Assembly (NCBI GenBank): GCA_013359125.1
Contig: JABWCR010000026.1
Location: 1 to 37,055, forward strand
Direction of reading: 5' to 3'
DNA length: 37,055 bases
DNA from: Armatimonadota bacterium
GTDB lineage: Bacteria; Armatimonadota; Fimbriimonadia; Fimbriimonadales; GBS-DC
Made by a program: the position numbers and the translations under genes. This document shows positions 4,787-37,055 of the stretch, one piece after another (within the stretch, counting starts at the first letter, position 1; every line of letters starts with the position of its first letter). Under the pieces are notes generated by a model. That model was not told where the DNA came from. It was given only the letters and a program-made list of their open reading frames with translations, and did not search any database.

Positions 4787-7700
4787 ATGCGTTTTGGGGC
4801 TGTGTTCGTTCTGGCGGGTTTGGTAGCGAGCGTTTGGGGGCAGCCCGACTACGTTTCGATCGCCGATACGATCTCGACCTCTCGGATACGGCAGACGGTG
4901 GAGACGCTTTCGGCCATGGGGTCTCGCGTGCCGGGGTACGCGGGCAATCGGGCGGCGGCAGAGCAGGTGGCTCGACAGTTCCGAGAGATCGGGCTGGAAA
5001 ATGTCCAGCTTGAGAAGTTCGTCGCGACTTCGCCGGTCGACCAAGGGGCGATGCTGACGACGCCGTTGCTCAAAGAGCCATTGCGCGTCTACCCGCTCTG
5101 GCCCAATTTGGTGCAGGCCAGCCATGGTCGGGCATCTGGCGGACTGATCGATGCGGGCAAAGCTTCTTTGGAGGAGTTTCGAGGCTTTCGAGTGCAAGGT
5201 TCGATCGCGCTGGTCGACTTCAATTGCGGCGCGGATTGGCTGAACGCGGCGAGGCTGGGCGCGTCGGCCATCGTATTTGTGGAGCCAGTTTCGACTGTCC
5301 GGGGTGAGGCCGAAGCCAAGTTTTTAACCGCGCCGGCAGACATCCCGCGCTACTGGGTCTCTCGAACGGACGGGATTCGGCTTCGCGCGGCGCTGGCTCG
5401 TGCGGGCAGGGGCGAAGCGAGCATCCAATGCCAGATGCCGTGGCAAAGGGCCGACGCATACAACGTCGTTGGCATTTTGCCGGGCGAGAAGCCGAGCCGA
5501 GAGACGATCGTCATCAACGCCTACTACGATTCGATGTCGATCGTGCCTTCGCTGGCGCCGGGCGCCGATTCGGCCTCGGGCATAGCGGCGCTCTTAGAGC
5601 TAGCGCGCTGTTTTAAGAAGCAGCGCAACGATCGCACAATCATGTTTGTTGCGAACGGAGCGCACTTCATCGGTCTTTTGGGAGTGCGAGAGTTTATCGA
5701 GCGGCGGTTGCACGAATGGCGGCCGAGGAGCCTCATCGAAAAAGTTACCGGCTCAAAGCGCGATCCTCCCGAAATCTACCTCTTTGCGTCGCTCGATCTA
5801 TCCAGCCGGTCGCCCTGTATCGCGCCGTTTTACAAGAGTTGGTATTACGACGTGCGCGAGGACTTGCTGGTGCGGTTTGCGCCGATAGGCAGGACTTTGC
5901 GAGACCATGCGGCGAAGATCGCGACCGCGCTAAACGCCGACCCAAAGCGTCTCTTTGCCGATGGGATCAATGCGGTCGAAGGGAAAGTGTGGCGCAACCA
6001 TATTCCGGGAGCCACAGCCTTTGACAGCGAGGCCGCAACGCTGGCGGGCGCGTTTGGCGTTACGTTTGCGACGGTTGACGACGCCCGTCCATTGGTCGAT
6101 ACGCCCTTCGATTTGCCGGAAGAGACCAATCCGGCGAACGTGGCCATCCAGACAAAGACGTTGGCCTGCCTGTTCCATCATCTCCTCAACGATCCTCGGC
6201 AATCGCTGGACGCGGCCAATCGGTTGCCGGTAAGGGAGCCATCGAATTGGGCGCGGATGCATTTGCAGGGCGGATTCGGGAAGTTGGGCGGGCACGTTTA
6301 TCGATTCGATCCGAACAAAAGTTTTGTGCCCAACACCCCCGTCAAAGGCTCGCTGGCGGTCCACTTTAGCAGCGGAAAGACCTTCATGGGCGTGCGCGGC
6401 CATCTGGTTCAGTTGACCGACGACAGCCATCCCGAACCTACGCTACAGGCGCGGTTCGATTTTGTCGGCGTGGCGCCCGTAACCGCTTACGCCTCTTCTG
6501 GAAGAACCTTTATCCAGGCCTATCATATCAATTCTGAGACGGGCAAGATCGACTATGCTCCCGATCAAGGATTGCAGGGCGCTCAAAGCTACCCGCTCGA
6601 CTTTCCCATGAACGTCGGGCAGATGGACCGGCAGGTCGTGCTCTTTCCGTGCGCGGCGACCACGCTTTTCGATTTGATCGATCCGCAATCGCTGAGGATG
6701 TTGCAGACGATCCAGGTTTACGACGGTGCGACGGACGCGGCGCCCAGAGAGTTTGGGGCGGTGTTCATACCGGTATCGCTGGCGTTTCAGGCTTATGTTG
6801 AGGACATTGCGGTGGCGTTTGCGACGCCGGGCGCGCGGATCAAACTCAAGTTAGGCATAGGCCCGGGCGAAGACCGACTGCTCCTGATCAATCCGTCGCC
6901 CGATTCCCCTGAGCGAGGAAAGGGCTATTGGGTCGGATCCAACCTTCCGCAAGGCGTTGAGGCGAGCGAACGGGACCAGGCAATGATCGGCGGGCGGATG
7001 TCGATGACCGCCTTTCGTGCCGCAGAGGACATGCTGGCGCTGAACGACTTTCGGCTGCAGAGGTTGAAAAAGCACCGGATCTCCAATCCTGGCGAGGAAG
7101 CCCTGCAGGCAGAGGGCAAGACGGCCTTAGAGAAGGCCAATGAGGCGTTAGCGCGATTGGATTATGCGGCTGCCGATTCGTATGCTCGCGCGGCTTGGGG
7201 ATTCGCCGCTCGCGCCTATCCGGGCATCAAGGGCGCGTCGTCCGATGTAGTGAACGGCGTGATTTTCTATCTGGCGCTGCTGATACCGTTCTCTTATTTT
7301 ATGGAGAGGCTTTTGATCCACGCTCGGAATCTCAAACTGCAATTGATCTGGGCGAGCGCGATCTTTGTGGCCGTGTTTATCGGGCTTCGATACTTGCATC
7401 CCGCGTTCGAGATCACCAGCAGTCCGGTCATCGTGTTCATCGCCTTCGTGATGGGCGCTCTGTCGCTGATCGTCTCGACGTTGATCATCAGTCGTTTTGA
7501 GGAGCAGGCCAGGGGAGGCGCGATGGATGCGCATCGGGCCGACGTCGGCCGAATGAGCGCCGCGGCCGCGGCGCTGAATCTGGGAATCAGCAACATGCGC
7601 AAGCGCAAGCTGAGAACCCTGCTGACCAGCCTATCCTTGGTGATGGTTTCGTTCGTGTCGCTCTCGTTCACTTCCATCGTCAGCGCGCTGCGATTCAACG

Positions 7701-9259
7701 AGACTCCCGCTCCTGGAACGCCCGCTTACAACGGCATTTTGGTTCGCGCCCCCGACCTGTCGCCATTGCAGGAATCGGCTTTTCGGTTGTTGCGAGACGA
7801 GTTTGCAGGCCAGGCGCCTGTGTCGGGCAGGGCTTGGTTTTTTGGGGCGCAATTGGGCGAGAGTTCGTTCATAACCCTTCGCCGAGGCGATCGGAAGTAC
7901 GACGCTCGCGCTCTAATCGGCTTGTCGCACGAAGAGGGCGCAATCTCCAAACTGGGTTCTGCTCTGGTTGCCGGACGGTGGTTTACGCCGTTCGATGAGA
8001 ACGCCATCCTATTGGCGGACCGAACGGCGCGCATTTTGGGCGTTCGCAATGAGGAGGCCGGCCAAGCGAGCGTGGAGTTTGGCGGCGCTCAGTATCGGGT
8101 AGTCGGGATTCTGAGTTCGGAGGCGGTCAAGTCGATTACAGACCTCGATAACGAGATTTTGACGCCGGCCGATTTTGTTCAGATGCAGAGGCTACAGAGG
8201 CAGGGAAGAACGTCGGGCGGCTCCGGGTTTCAGGAGTATGTGCGGATGGAGCCGGATACAGTGGCGTTTGTGCCGTTCCGAACAGCGATCAATCTGGGTG
8301 CGGGAATTTATTCGGTCGCGATCGATTTTGGATCGGTCGAAAGGGCGCAGCAAGCCTTAAAGAGCGATCTGATGCCAAGGCTCAATCTTAACCTCTATGC
8401 GGGGCTGGGCGAAAAAACAGCCCGATACAGCACCATGCAATCGGCAAAGGGCGAAGGGTTGGAATACGTGGTCTTGCCGGCAATCTTGGCAGGCATGATC
8501 GTCCTGAGCACGATGCTAGGTTCGGTCTACGAGCGGCTCCGGGAGATCAGCATTTTCAGCGCGGTGGGGCTGGCGCCGGCGCACATTGCGATGTTGTTTT
8601 TGGCCGAGGCGATGGTGTACGGCTTGTTAGGTTGCGTGGCGGGGTACTTCTTGGGTCAGTTGACGACTTTGGGCTTGCACGCGGTCGGATGGCTGCCGGG
8701 TTTGACTCTAAACTTTTCCAGCGCGTCGGCGGCCATGTCGGTGGGCATTGTGATGGCGGTCGCGCTCATTTCAACACTCTATCCAGCAAGGAAAGCCGGT
8801 CAAGCGGCCACACCCGCCATGGATCGCGGTTGGCGATTGCCCGAACATCAAGGCGACGATTGGGAGATCGAACTGCCCTTTACCGTTTCCGCAGGCCAGG
8901 TCGGCGCGGCTGCACGGTTCATCGCCGAGTGGCTGGAGGCGCACGGCGAGCACAGCCTGGGCGAATTCATGACCCAAGACGTCGTTTCTCTGGTTGAGGC
9001 CGATTCGGGCTCTGTCGAAGCGACGGCTTGGCTGGCGCCTTTCGACCTCGGCGTATCTCAGAGCGTTCGTCTTCTGTTGCGTCCGGCTGCTGTTCATGGC
9101 GTGTTCTCCGTTCATATTCATCTTCATCGTCTCAGCGGCGATGTTTCCAATTGGGTGCGGCTCAATCGTCGATTCATGGATCAATTTCGCAAGCAGTTCT
9201 TGGTCTGGCGAACCCTCAGCGAGGAGAAGAGGGAACGATACCTGGCCGTGGCTCACTGA
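4787..9259 (+). CDS. Fusion of inactive-looking M28 peptidase domain and FtsX/MacB-type permease
   Basis: The 1490-residue protein starts with a signal-like segment (residues 1-19). Residues about 30-470 look like an M28 (Zn aminopeptidase) domain with an inserted PA-like segment (about 100-215). The metal-binding motifs are altered: the usual 'HxD' is 'AYYDS' (244-249), the bridging-Asp loop is 'PGADSASG' (258-265), and the usual 'EE' is 'AHF' (292-294). Hydrolysis is therefore doubtful. Residues about 490-815 are an extracytoplasmic region with a helical end. Three membrane segments follow (about 820-840, 853-870, 879-902), then an FtsX-like unit: a membrane helix at 944-966, a periplasmic domain, and three helices at about 1227-1246, 1265-1290 and 1312-1332. 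The third-from-last loop has 'RLREISIFSAVGLAP', the hallmark of FtsX/MacB permeases. No ATPase gene is adjacent. The start has no clear Shine-Dalgarno. The 3' end overlaps the convergent sigma-like gene by 7 bases. Confidence 0.8.
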   Translation: MRFGAVFVLAGLVASVWGQPDYVSIADTISTSRIRQTVETLSAMGSRVPGYAGNRAAAEQVARQFREIGLENVQLEKFVATSPVDQGAMLTTPLLKEPLRVYPLWPNLVQASHGRASGGLIDAGKASLEEFRGFRVQGSIALVDFNCGADWLNAARLGASAIVFVEPVSTVRGEAEAKFLTAPADIPRYWVSRTDGIRLRAALARAGRGEASIQCQMPWQRADAYNVVGILPGEKPSRETIVINAYYDSMSIVPSLAPGADSASGIAALLELARCFKKQRNDRTIMFVANGAHFIGLLGVREFIERRLHEWRPRSLIEKVTGSKRDPPEIYLFASLDLSSRSPCIAPFYKSWYYDVREDLLVRFAPIGRTLRDHAAKIATALNADPKRLFADGINAVEGKVWRNHIPGATAFDSEAATLAGAFGVTFATVDDARPLVDTPFDLPEETNPANVAIQTKTLACLFHHLLNDPRQSLDAANRLPVREPSNWARMHLQGGFGKLGGHVYRFDPNKSFVPNTPVKGSLAVHFSSGKTFMGVRGHLVQLTDDSHPEPTLQARFDFVGVAPVTAYASSGRTFIQAYHINSETGKIDYAPDQGLQGAQSYPLDFPMNVGQMDRQVVLFPCAATTLFDLIDPQSLRMLQTIQVYDGATDAAPREFGAVFIPVSLAFQAYVEDIAVAFATPGARIKLKLGIGPGEDRLLLINPSPDSPERGKGYWVGSNLPQGVEASERDQAMIGGRMSMTAFRAAEDMLALNDFRLQRLKKHRISNPGEEALQAEGKTALEKANEALARLDYAAADSYARAAWGFAARAYPGIKGASSDVVNGVIFYLALLIPFSYFMERLLIHARNLKLQLIWASAIFVAVFIGLRYLHPAFEITSSPVIVFIAFVMGALSLIVSTLIISRFEEQARGGAMDAHRADVGRMSAAAAALNLGISNMRKRKLRTLLTSLSLVMVSFVSLSFTSIVSALRFNETPAPGTPAYNGILVRAPDLSPLQESAFRLLRDEFAGQAPVSGRAWFFGAQLGESSFITLRRGDRKYDARALIGLSHEEGAISKLGSALVAGRWFTPFDENAILLADRTARILGVRNEEAGQASVEFGGAQYRVVGILSSEAVKSITDLDNEILTPADFVQMQRLQRQGRTSGGSGFQEYVRMEPDTVAFVPFRTAINLGAGIYSVAIDFGSVERAQQALKSDLMPRLNLNLYAGLGEKTARYSTMQSAKGEGLEYVVLPAILAGMIVLSTMLGSVYERLREISIFSAVGLAPAHIAMLFLAEAMVYGLLGCVAGYFLGQLTTLGLHAVGWLPGLTLNFSSASAAMSVGIVMAVALISTLYPARKAGQAATPAMDRGWRLPEHQGDDWEIELPFTVSAGQVGAAARFIAEWLEAHGEHSLGEFMTQDVVSLVEADSGSVEATAWLAPFDLGVSQSVRLLLRPAAVHGVFSVHIHLHRLSGDVSNWVRLNRRFMDQFRKQFLVWRTLSEEKRERYLAVAH

Positions 9260-27937: not shown

Positions 27938-30214
27938 ATGAGCGCCGCGGCGCTATCGCCGACAGGAATTCCGATCAGCGTTACAGGACAGCCGTCCATC
28001 GACGATCGCTTTCATCTGATCGGTATCGGCGGCGCCGGCATGTCGGGCATGGCGTTCGCGCTCATGGAACAGGGAGCGCAAATCTCCGGTTCAGATCGAA
28101 CCGAATCGCCGACTATCCAAGCGCTGCGACAGGCGGGCGCTCAGATCGGGATCGGCGATTGGTCCGGCCTGGTCGCACAGGCCACCTGGATCGTCGCCTC
28201 CGATGCGATTTGGCCCGACCATCCTGAGATTCAATGGGCGCTTGAGCGCGACGTGCCTGTATGGCGGCGATCCCAGATGCTGGCTTGGCTCTTAAGGGAT
28301 AAGCGTTTGATTGCGGTCGCAGGCGCGCATGGCAAGACGACTGCCACCGCCATGATCGCCGCGATCTTGGAACAAGCCGGATTGGATCCCGTCGTTGCGC
28401 TGGGCGGCGAGCCGTTGAGAAAGGGGCCTCAGTGGAGAGGCGGTTGGAGAATCGGTCAGGGCGAATGGGCTGTGGCCGAAGCGTGCGAAGCCTACGGCGC
28501 ATTCTTAGACCTGACGCCCGAGATTGCTCTGGTTACGAACATCGAAGCCGACCATCTGGATCACCACAAGAGCTTTGACGCCCTGAAGAAGAAGTTTCGC
28601 GCCTTTATCCAAAGCGCCAGCCGGACGGCCATCGTCTGCGCGGACGACGAAACCGCTGTAAGAGTCGCACAAGAATCGGGCAGGGCGTACGAGACCTACG
28701 GATTCGACCAAGGCGCTTTAAAAAGCATCCGACTGGCCGTGCCCGGCAGGCACAACGAACTCAATGCGCTTGGAGCGATCAGCGCAGCGCTCAAGTGCGG
28801 TGCGACGATCGACGATTGCAAGAAGGCCTTGGAGGCCTTCTCGGGAACTCACCGTCGGCTGGAGCATGTCGCCGAACTCCAAGGCATTGCCGTCATCGAC
28901 GACTATGCCCATCACCCGACCGAGATTAGAGCGAGCATCGAGGCGGTTCGAACCAGTTATCCAGATCGCCGTCTGATCGTCGTATTCCAGCCGCATCTTT
29001 ATAGCCGCACTCGCGACTTTCTTCAGGAGTTTGCAGACGCCCTCGCATTGGCCGATTGGGCCGTCCTGACCGATATCTATCCTGCTCGCGAAACGCCCAT
29101 TCCCGGCATCAGCGCCGCCGTGATCGTGGAGCGGCTGCACGACTTAGGCAAGAGCAACGCCCGATATGTGCCGGTTCTCAGCAAGATCGCGCCAGTCATC
29201 GCGCCGAAGCTCCGAGAATCCGATGTTCTGGTACTGATGGGCGCGGGCGATATTGACAAGGTTCCGGCCCAAGTGGTCCGTCGCTTGGAGCATCGAGACA
29301 GCCAACTCCGAATCGCCGTCCTCATGGGCGGCGATTCGGAGGAGCGAGAAGTCAGTTTGATATCCGGGCGCCGGGTGATGGATGCGCTCCAAGAACAGGG
29401 ATTTGAGACGGTGGCAATCGATCCCGCCAAGCCTGGCGAACTCGCTCAACTCGCGACCGATGGCGGCTTCGATGCCGCTTTTGTCGCCCTTCACGGGCGG
29501 TATGGCGAGGGCGGATCGATACAGGGCTTGCTGGACATGCTCGGCATCCCTTACACAGGTTCCGATCCGCTGGCTTCGGCATTGGCTATGAACAAGGCGG
29601 CCTCCTTGGCGATTCTTCGCCAAGCTGGATTGACGACCCCCCAAGGTCAACTGGTTCACCGGGGCGACGCTCTGCAAATCGATCCGCCCTGCGCAGTGAA
29701 GCCGAACTCGGGCGGTTCCACCTTGGGCGTCTCGATCGTCCGAAACCCCGATCGGCTCGATGCCGCGCTGGAACGCGCATGGGCGCTGGACGAGGCCGCA
29801 TTAGTCGAAGAGTTGATCGAAGGCGTCGAGATCAGCGCGACTATCCTCGGCTTGGACGATCCAGTCTGTCTGCCGCTGGTCGAGATTCTGCCGCGACAAG
29901 GTTTTTATGATTTTCAAGCCAAGTACGAACAGGGCGCAACCGAGGAGATCGTGCCAGCGCGCATCTCGACACAAGCGACCGAACGAGCGAGCGAGGCCGC
30001 GCTCGTCGCCCACAAAGCGATCGGTTGTCGCGGCCTGAGTCGCGTCGACATGATCATCCGGGACGACGAACCGGTCATCCTTGAAATCAATACTGTTCCG
30101 GGTTTGACCCCGACTTCGCTTGCGCCTCGTTGCGCCGAGGCTGCCGGAATCTCTTTCGGAGAGTTCTGTCGATTGCAGGTCGAATACGCGCTTCAAGCAT
30201 GGAGCCGAATCTGA
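27938..30214 (+). CDS. Bifunctional MurC-Ddl fusion (UDP-MurNAc:L-Ala ligase and D-Ala-D-Ala ligase)
   Basis: The 758-residue protein joins two cell wall ligases. Residues about 24-448 are MurC: 'FHLIGIGGAGMSGMA' (25-39), the ATP loop 'VAGAHGKTTATAM' (127-139), 'EACEAYGAFLDLTPEIALVT' (181-200), 'NIEADHLDHHKSFDALKKKF' (201-220), 'DDYAHHPTEI' (321-330), and 'QPHLYSRTRDF' (351-361). Residues about 457-757 are Ddl: 'VLMGGDSEEREVSLISGRRV' (461-480), 'HGRYGEGGSIQGLLDMLGIP' (519-538), 'GSDPLASALAMNK' (541-553), 'VKPNSGGSTLGVS' (587-599) and 'EINTVPGLTPTSL' (716-728). Both active sites look complete. A similar fusion is known from Chlamydia. murB, usually between murC and ddl, is absent. The frame is continuous across the junction, so it is not two overlapping genes. 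It overlaps ftsQ by one base. Confidence 0.95.
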   Translation: MSAAALSPTGIPISVTGQPSIDDRFHLIGIGGAGMSGMAFALMEQGAQISGSDRTESPTIQALRQAGAQIGIGDWSGLVAQATWIVASDAIWPDHPEIQWALERDVPVWRRSQMLAWLLRDKRLIAVAGAHGKTTATAMIAAILEQAGLDPVVALGGEPLRKGPQWRGGWRIGQGEWAVAEACEAYGAFLDLTPEIALVTNIEADHLDHHKSFDALKKKFRAFIQSASRTAIVCADDETAVRVAQESGRAYETYGFDQGALKSIRLAVPGRHNELNALGAISAALKCGATIDDCKKALEAFSGTHRRLEHVAELQGIAVIDDYAHHPTEIRASIEAVRTSYPDRRLIVVFQPHLYSRTRDFLQEFADALALADWAVLTDIYPARETPIPGISAAVIVERLHDLGKSNARYVPVLSKIAPVIAPKLRESDVLVLMGAGDIDKVPAQVVRRLEHRDSQLRIAVLMGGDSEEREVSLISGRRVMDALQEQGFETVAIDPAKPGELAQLATDGGFDAAFVALHGRYGEGGSIQGLLDMLGIPYTGSDPLASALAMNKAASLAILRQAGLTTPQGQLVHRGDALQIDPPCAVKPNSGGSTLGVSIVRNPDRLDAALERAWALDEAALVEELIEGVEISATILGLDDPVCLPLVEILPRQGFYDFQAKYEQGATEEIVPARISTQATERASEAALVAHKAIGCRGLSRVDMIIRDDEPVILEINTVPGLTPTSLAPRCAEAAGISFGEFCRLQVEYALQAWSRI

Positions 30215-34613: not shown

Positions 34614-34670
34614 AGGTCGTTGAGCGGACGAGGCGGGCGCGAAGCGGTTGGCTCGTCCGCTCAACGACCT
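34614..34670. repeat. Perfect 19-bp inverted repeat between ftsZ and the CRISPR array
   Basis: The arms 34614-34632 (AGGTCGTTGAGCGGACGAG) and 34652-34670 are perfectly complementary, with a 19-base GC-rich loop. The right arm ends one base before the first CRISPR repeat. There is no T tract on either side, so it is not a classic intrinsic terminator. It could block read-through from ftsZ, act as a factor-binding site, or mark the array boundary. The 33 bases between the ftsZ stop and the left arm are A-rich and show no clear promoter. Confidence 0.85.
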
Positions 34671-34671
34671 G

Positions 34672-37055
34672 GTTGGGGATAGCGGGTCAACCTCCACCAG
34701 GTACAATCTTCTCGCAGGGTGTATGCGGCCTCGAGGGTTGGGGATAGCGGGTCAACCTCCACCAGGTACAATCAGCCATCAAATAACGAGCCGAACTTGT
34801 CTGTTGGGGATAGCGGGTCAACCTCCACCAGGTACAATCTTCAATGCCGTCGCTCGCGAAGCCGTCGCGTTGGGGATAGCGGGTCAACCTCCACCAGGTA
34901 CAATAAGATGCTCAAAGGGTGTACTACTACTACCGTTGGGGATAGCGGGTCAACCTCCACCAGGTACAATCCGTCTTCCTCGCTCTCGCCTACTTCGGGC
35001 GTTGGGGATAGCGGGTCAACCTCCACCAGGTACAATCGCATACGCATACGCACACGCACGCACGCGTTGGGGATAGCGGGTCAACCTCCACCAGGTACAA
35101 TTCAAGCCGTTGCCAGGCGGCGCGGATTAGGGTTGGGGATAGCGGGTCAACCTCCACCAGGTACAATATAGTATAGCACATATCCGCAAGAATTGCAGTT
35201 GGGGATAGCGGGTCAACCTCCACCAGGTACAATGGAAGGTCGGCGGGCTACCCGGCCGCCGCTGTTGGGGATAGCGGGTCAACCTCCACCAGGTACAATT
35301 ATCTGCAATCTGAGCAGAAAGGACATTCTGTTGGGGATAGCGGGTCAACCTCCACCAGGTACAATTCGAGAGGCTCGCGACCACTCAATTGAAAGTTGGG
35401 GATAGCGGGTCAACCTCCACCAGGTACAATTGCCGGCCTCGGCGCGCTGTGCCGTGAGGCGTTGGGGATAGCGGGTCAACCTCCACCAGGTACAATAACA
35501 TCGACCAGAACGACGACCGAGCGCGGGTTGGGGATAGCGGGTCAACCTCCACCAGGTACAATCGGGCAACAGGTTGGGTAGTCGGTCTCGGGTTGGGGAT
35601 AGCGGGTCAACCTCCACCAGGTACAATGAGGTCGGCGGTTCCTGTCTGGTCGATCAGTTGGGGATAGCGGGTCAACCTCCACCAGGTACAATAATATTTG
35701 AATTATAAACAGACATCAAAGTGTTGGGGATAGCGGGTCAACCTCCACCAGGTACAATCTCAATCATCGAAGTGACGTGCCGGCCTTGGTTGGGGATAGC
35801 GGGTCAACCTCCACCAGGTACAATGAGGCGCCTCGACGGCCCAATGCGGTTTCGTTGGGGATAGCGGGTCAACCTCCACCAGGTACAATGGACGGCTTGG
35901 CCTCGACCTCGGCCGCGCCGTTGGGGATAGCGGGTCAACCTCCACCAGGTACAATCGATACCCTCTTCTACTTCAGCGTTACCCGAGTTGGGGATAGCGG
36001 GTCAACCTCCACCAGGTACAATCCACTGCTTTGCAACTCTTGCAGCGTTATTGTTGGGGATAGCGGGTCAACCTCCACCAGGTACAATCGAACCGTTTTT
36101 TTGCGTCCGCCCAGTCGTGTTGGGGATAGCGGGTCAACCTCCACCAGGTACAATGGATTTGGCGGCAGAGATCGCCGCTCGATGGTTGGGGATAGCGGGT
36201 CAACCTCCACCAGGTACAATAAACTCCATCAGCGCCCCGTTCGAACCTCCGTTGGGGATAGCGGGTCAACCTCCACCAGGTACAATTATCGCGAAACCGT
36301 GCGTTTCATCCCACGGGTTGGGGATAGCGGGTCAACCTCCACCAGGTACAATCCCGCGAGCGCGAGCCCGCCGCCCACCAATGTTGGGGATAGCGGGTCA
36401 ACCTCCACCAGGTACAATGAGAAATATGACCGGCATCGACCAGATATTGTTGGGGATAGCGGGTCAACCTCCACCAGGTACAATCTCGTTAGTCTCCTCC
36501 TCGACCAGTTGGTCGTTGGGGATAGCGGGTCAACCTCCACCAGGTACAATTTGCAAGGCGTGGGAATTGTCGGGAACGATGTTGGGGATAGCGGGTCAAC
36601 CTCCACCAGGTACAATGTTTCAGGAAATCGAACGGCGCGCTTCCGGGTTGGGGATAGCGGGTCAACCTCCACCAGGTACAATTCGCCCATTTGTGCGCTT
36701 CCGGCCACAGGGTTGGGGATAGCGGGTCAACCTCCACCAGGTACAATCAGAGCCCCTGGTCAGCGCTTTGCACGTCTGTTGGGGATAGCGGGTCAACCTC
36801 CACCAGGTACAATGAACGACCCGGACTGGATGGTCCGTTTTGCGTTGGGGATAGCGGGTCAACCTCCACCAGGTACAATCACGGGCGCTTCGACGTGGCA
36901 CGGGTCCCAGTTGGGGATAGCGGGTCAACCTCCACCAGGTACAATCGTTATCGGTCAAATTGCGATACGTGATTAGTTGGGGATAGCGGGTCAACCTCCA
37001 CCAGGTACAATCTTGCAGAACGGGCGCCCATTGAATCGCCCGTTGGGGATAGCGG
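34672..37055 (+). CRISPR. CRISPR array, 36 full repeats plus a partial one, type II-C-like repeat
   Basis: The 36-nt repeat starts GTTGGGGATAGC, continues GGGTCAACCTCCAC, and ends CAGGTACAAT. Full copies begin at 34672, 34737, 34803, 34869, 34935, 35001, 35066, 35132, 35198, 35264, 35330, 35395 and so on to 36976; the last copy (37042) is cut by the window end. All copies appear identical. The 36 spacers are unique: 28 are 30 nt, seven are 29 and one (35956-35986) is 31. Repeat length, 30-nt spacers, GTTG start and TACAAT end resemble the Neisseria type II-C repeat, so a Cas9 system is plausible, but no cas gene is in the window. By analogy crRNA would be read left to right. TACAAT matches a -10 box in 5 of 6 positions. 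Because repeat plus spacer is usually 66 bases, artificial open frames run through the array. Confidence 0.97.

Follow-up and report, generated by a model that had tools for sequence, protein, structure and literature searches.

Which CRISPR-Cas system does a long repeat array serve when no cas genes lie beside it, and where is its effector? The window, a stretch of 37,055 nucleotides of Armatimonadota DNA that makes up the entire contig G000:C26, raises this question at its right edge, where the contig ends inside such an array. Combining the array with the rest of the genome, we conclude, with a probability of about 95%, that a complete type II-C CRISPR-Cas9 locus was split within its array by the assembly, and that the window array is the cas-distal half of it. 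The locus is a divergent member of a well-known CRISPR kind, not a different kind. The features of the window that define the array are:

34672 to 37055, + strand: type II-C CRISPR array, cas-distal half, with 36 full repeats, 36 spacers and a further 14 nt (exact matching and pattern search of the own genome).
34672 to 34707, + strand: repeat 1 of the crRNA strand, unmutated, probably the oldest or 'extra' repeat (exact matching; mutated first repeats in relatives; PMC12080349, PMC8092290).
37042 to 37055, + strand: first 14 nt of a truncated 37th repeat, GTTGGGGATAGCGG, at the contig end.

Exact matching located 36 copies of the 36-nt repeat GTTGGGGATAGCGGGTCAACCTCCACCAGGTACAAT between 34672 and 37011, and no degenerate copies in the window array. 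The spacers that follow them are each unique and mostly 30 nt long (28 of 36), the others measuring 29 nt (seven) or 31 nt (one). A reversed-pattern control of the repeat gave zero matches in the own genome, which places the array far above chance. The first-pass annotation had described a large, uniform array of at least 36 spacers with undecayed repeats, a 36-nt repeat that begins with GTTG and ends with TACAAT, 30-nt spacers, and a run-off at the right edge, which falls inside repeat 37; every one of these details holds, and its remark that cas genes are absent from view is correct for the window.

A pattern search of this genome, which is given as 100% complete, revealed the repeat elsewhere on contig C35 only, as 33 exact copies on the same strand (C35:23-2165), with the first base of C35 falling within a spacer. 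The two contigs therefore carry at least 69 repeats (36 on C26 and 33 on C35), all identical. Directly beyond the end of the C35 array, and convergent with the crRNA strand, are three cas genes:

C35:2275-2640, - strand: cas2, 121 aa (Cas2 profile match, 4e-20).
C35:2595-3485, - strand: cas1, 296 aa (best-scoring model TIGR03639, NMENI, type II, 7e-87).
C35:3546-6584, - strand: cas9, 1012 aa (TIGR01865, 8e-186; Pfam HNH_4, RuvC_III and Cas9_a).

This Cas9 is the only one in its genome. Its RuvC-I, bridge helix, RuvC-II, HNH and RuvC-III motifs align with those of other Cas9 proteins of the phylum, and its structural relatives in the PDB are the solved type II Cas9s. In the HNH motif (C35 about 4900-4935), E-H replaces D-H, as it also does in many relatives within the phylum. 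Past cas9 the gene order on C35 continues with the tracrRNA, followed by genes for an M28-type peptidase and for ABC transporters. Neither csn2 nor cas4 was found beside cas2-cas1-cas9 in the C35 open reading frame list as read to about 11 kb, and no Cas3/Cascade, Csm/Cmr, Cas12 or Cas13 genes lie beside the array, the adjoining genes being cas9-cas1-cas2 only. Since the marker genes of type II-A (csn2) and type II-B (cas4) are not adjacent, the system is assigned to type II-C, as had been proposed from the repeat; the NMENI-type Cas1, and the cas9 and tracrRNA beside the array continuation on C35, agree with this assignment. The annotation had also placed the effector beyond position 37,055 or else unlinked to the array, and cas2-cas1-cas9 do adjoin the continuation of the array if, as argued below, C35 is joined to C26. 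The search past the right edge that it had recommended, for cas9, cas1, cas2 and an anti-repeat, recovered all four on C35.

The anti-repeat belongs to a tracrRNA encoded upstream of cas9 and divergent from it:

C35:6633-6660, + strand: sigma-70 promoter of the tracrRNA, 12/12 with a 16-nt spacer (promoter scan).
C35:6673-6706, + strand: anti-repeat, starting about 12 nt past the promoter (complementarity to the repeat).
C35:6761-6783, + strand: terminator hairpin, the last of three hairpins.

The three hairpins give the tracrRNA a z of -3.3. In the duplex of repeat and anti-repeat, 35 of 36 repeat bases are paired, with a single bulge and an energy of -66.7 kcal/mol; the corresponding duplexes of relatives (n=13) have 27-32 pairs and -45 to -59 kcal/mol, so that this pairing is the most complete among the 14 tracrRNAs compared. 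The orientation of the anti-repeat identifies the + strand of the window as the crRNA strand. The motif GTTGGGG before the -10 element of the tracrRNA prompted us to consider whether a long-form tracrRNA might serve as a natural single guide; this candidate was rejected, as the adjacent 11-nt 'spacer' matches nowhere else on C26 or C35. A possible pseudoknot was observed in the tracrRNAs of relatives, between the anti-repeat bulge and a stretch just past the nexus (CCUGCG:CGCAGG; AGCUUG:CAAGCU in L063). It was assessed on our own locus (L014:6691-6734) and the relatives L053, L054, L057, L058, L063, L090 and L093, with a crude permutation p = 0.006; our own tracrRNA has no anti-repeat bulge, and its sole pseudoknot candidate is ACCCUU:GAGGGU.

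Cas9 proteins of the same kind are present in 33 of the 291 phylum genomes, and no Cas9 matches were found in any of the 17 other genomes of the own family. The nearest relatives in the phylum share about 38-41% identity over the full length. A maximum-likelihood tree places our protein on a long branch within a well supported 19-member group, most of whose internal branching order is unresolved, and a scan of genome contigs returned a single distant Cas9 relative. Of the closest relatives examined, four share the repeat style (GTTGGGG...GATACAAT) and possess a candidate anti-repeat, which lies upstream of cas9 in most relatives examined; the repeat style and the locus layout are common to several relatives. 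The anticipated divergent Cas9 with its own tracrRNA is thus found, both in the distance to its nearest relatives and in the tracrRNA beside the gene.

The locus resembles the type II-C systems of Neisseria meningitidis and Campylobacter jejuni in its gene content and order (cas9-cas1-cas2) and NMENI Cas1, in the 36-nt GTTG...TACAAT repeat, 30-nt spacers and tracrRNA beside cas9, and in a small Cas9 (1012 aa) with a crRNA strand convergent with the cas genes. It differs from them in the divergence of its Cas9, whose PDB relatives are weaker than those of the phylum, in an anti-repeat that pairs with nearly the whole repeat, and in a repeat end that lacks the TG of an extended -10.

In type II-C systems the acquisition site is the last repeat, and promoters carried by the repeats transcribe toward it (PMC8092290, PMC12080349). 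Relatives often carry mutations in the cas-distal repeat, the first on the crRNA strand, and rarely in the last one. On these two grounds we infer that the window holds the oldest end of the array. The TACAAT that ends each repeat is -10-like, with no recognisable -35 and no extended TG, and transcription of crRNAs would run along the + strand in the direction of cas2, with these elements as its probable promoters. The anti-repeat of the tracrRNA is predicted to pair with the repeat on the 3' side of each spacer; the duplex may then be trimmed, via RNase III or through internal initiation, and Cas9 loaded with crRNA:tracrRNA would cut invading DNA next to a predicted 3' PAM. Cas1-Cas2 would insert new spacers at the cas2-proximal end, leaving the oldest spacers in the window.

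Immediately before this presumed oldest repeat lies one further element:

34614 to 34670, + strand: perfect 19-bp inverted repeat with arms at 34614-34632 and 34652-34670 and a 19-nt loop (inverted-repeat search and fold).

The hairpin starts 34 nt past the ftsZ stop codon and ends 1 nt upstream of repeat 1. A terminator scan detected no U-tract or terminator-like site at it. A dispersed repeat element was considered and rejected, as the arm is confined to this site in the genome. Feussner et al. (2025) describe that type II-C systems suppress an 'extraneous crRNA' arising at the first repeat by means of terminators, guide-locking hairpins and repeat mutations, which jointly cover 73% of these systems (PMC12080349). 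The 19-bp hairpin is a candidate member of their guide-locking class: like the published hairpins, it places a helix in the 25 nt ahead of the oldest repeat, the first one, where the extraneous guide would be trapped. Lying flush with repeat 1, it would probably fold the would-be guide of an extraneous crRNA produced by read-through from ftsZ, and such folding would keep Cas9 from being wasted on that RNA. In the published C. jejuni example the hairpin is also a predicted terminator and its two roles were inseparable for the authors, whereas the perfect 19-bp stem seen here has no U-tract and the roles are separable in principle. It is also unlike the leader-repeat hairpins of type VI and type II-A systems (PMC13187072 and work cited there), in which base pairing joins the leader to the repeat; in our array the pairing lies at the trailer end and is mainly within the flank.

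We compared array boundaries in the 12 phylum arrays with an intact 5' end. Because the pattern had first been spotted by eye in those same 12 arrays, the following counts are not an independent test of it: perfect stems of at least 10 bp lie within 10 nt of the array boundary in 6 of 12, against 0.5% of random positions and 4.9% of gene 3' ends, and stems of at least 16 bp occur at 4 of 12 arrays against 0 of 144 gene ends in the same loci. Five of the six boundary stems leave a gap of 0-1 nt to the first repeat, and their sequences are unrelated. These comparisons bear on the rival that survives best, that the hairpin is a plain transcription terminator of ftsZ with no relation to the array. 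Its position so soon after the ftsZ stop codon is what such a terminator would lead one to expect, but the missing U-tract, the flush placement of unrelated stems against first repeats, and the confinement of long stems to arrays rather than gene ends make this explanation unlikely.

A more specific version of the guide-locking reading is that type II-C arrays of the phylum carry a dedicated, U-tract-free hairpin at the oldest repeat that is purely guide-locking and not terminating, combined here with a near-perfect duplex of repeat and anti-repeat. We regard this as possible yet doubtful, and advance it tentatively. If guide-locking is the correct reading, a near-perfect duplex would require a stronger lock than do systems with bulged duplexes. 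Published work has yet to settle whether hairpins of this class sequester the extraneous guide or terminate transcription. Being long, perfect and free of U-tracts, the hairpins at the oldest array end offer clean cases for separating guide sequestering from transcription termination.

The next rival concerns the two contigs. C26 and C35 are not joined by sequence, and they might hold two separate arrays that share one repeat, an orphan after ftsZ and a second next to the cas genes, with one Cas9 serving the two in trans. Synteny near ftsZ neither favours nor excludes the join: nothing from C35 adjoins ftsZ in the family relatives. We find two arrays improbable, given that both contigs end inside an array in equal orientation, that this genome, given as complete, has the repeat nowhere beyond them, and that one long array of repeats is just where a short-read assembly would break. 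From the restriction of the repeat to these contigs, its equal orientation and the two ends inside the array, we infer that C26 and C35 carry one array broken by assembly.

That this single array is a relic or an inactive store of old spacers is very improbable, for although its spacers have no matches to known viruses, plasmids or prophages and the window half is the presumed oldest end, none of the 69 repeats deviates, the genes have open reading frames, the catalytic motifs and tracrRNA are intact, and one spacer has 19 nt in common with a spacer of the other CRISPR array, pointing to real shared invaders. Judged from the perfect repeats and the intact genes and motifs, it is plausible that the type II-C system is active.

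Searches with the 69 spacers returned chance-level matches only from phages and plasmids, and from the own genome only the array itself and a single match of 19 nt, located in another CRISPR array; five spacers, as 19-20-mers, had zero matches in viral contigs. No protospacer was found in the 291 phylum genomes, and the best foreign matches there, those compared with the coordinates of the spacers, straddled junctions in the concatenated query and were rejected as artefacts. With no protospacer among the results, the spacers yielded no PAM.

The 19-nt match links spacer 29 (36551-36580) to a spacer of the array on contig C5 (L015:1018-1050), which suggests that the type II-C and C5 systems met related invaders. 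The other end of the same C5 spacer overlaps the last 10 nt of spacer 8 of the II-C array (35168-35197); matches of that length, 10 nt, otherwise occur about as often as chance predicts. Should the spacer 8 overlap be real, the 3' flank of the target of spacer 8 would read AGGCGTGGG, a single weak lead to the PAM. The C5 array has an I-E-like repeat in two versions that differs from the II-C repeat. Its locus (L015, G000:C5, 1-8213) combines type III-A effectors with Cas1e and Cas6e of I-E type, the III-A genes being Cas10/Csm1 (only 480 aa), Csm2, Csm3, Csm4 and a CARF-HEPN Csx1. Apparently the III-A effector is fed by I-E adaptation and processing genes.

With the type II-C locus, a lineage so far little sampled contributes a Cas9 that is complete, divergent and compact (1012 aa), comes with a repeat, tracrRNA and promoter of its own, and suits a PAM-library test. 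Two other reading frames of the window stood out from their translations. One of 758 aa (27938-30214) resembles a MurC-Ddl fusion and lies in a division and cell-wall cluster. The other, of 1490 aa (4787-9259), seemingly joins an M28-type peptidase part to an ABC-transporter permease-like part.
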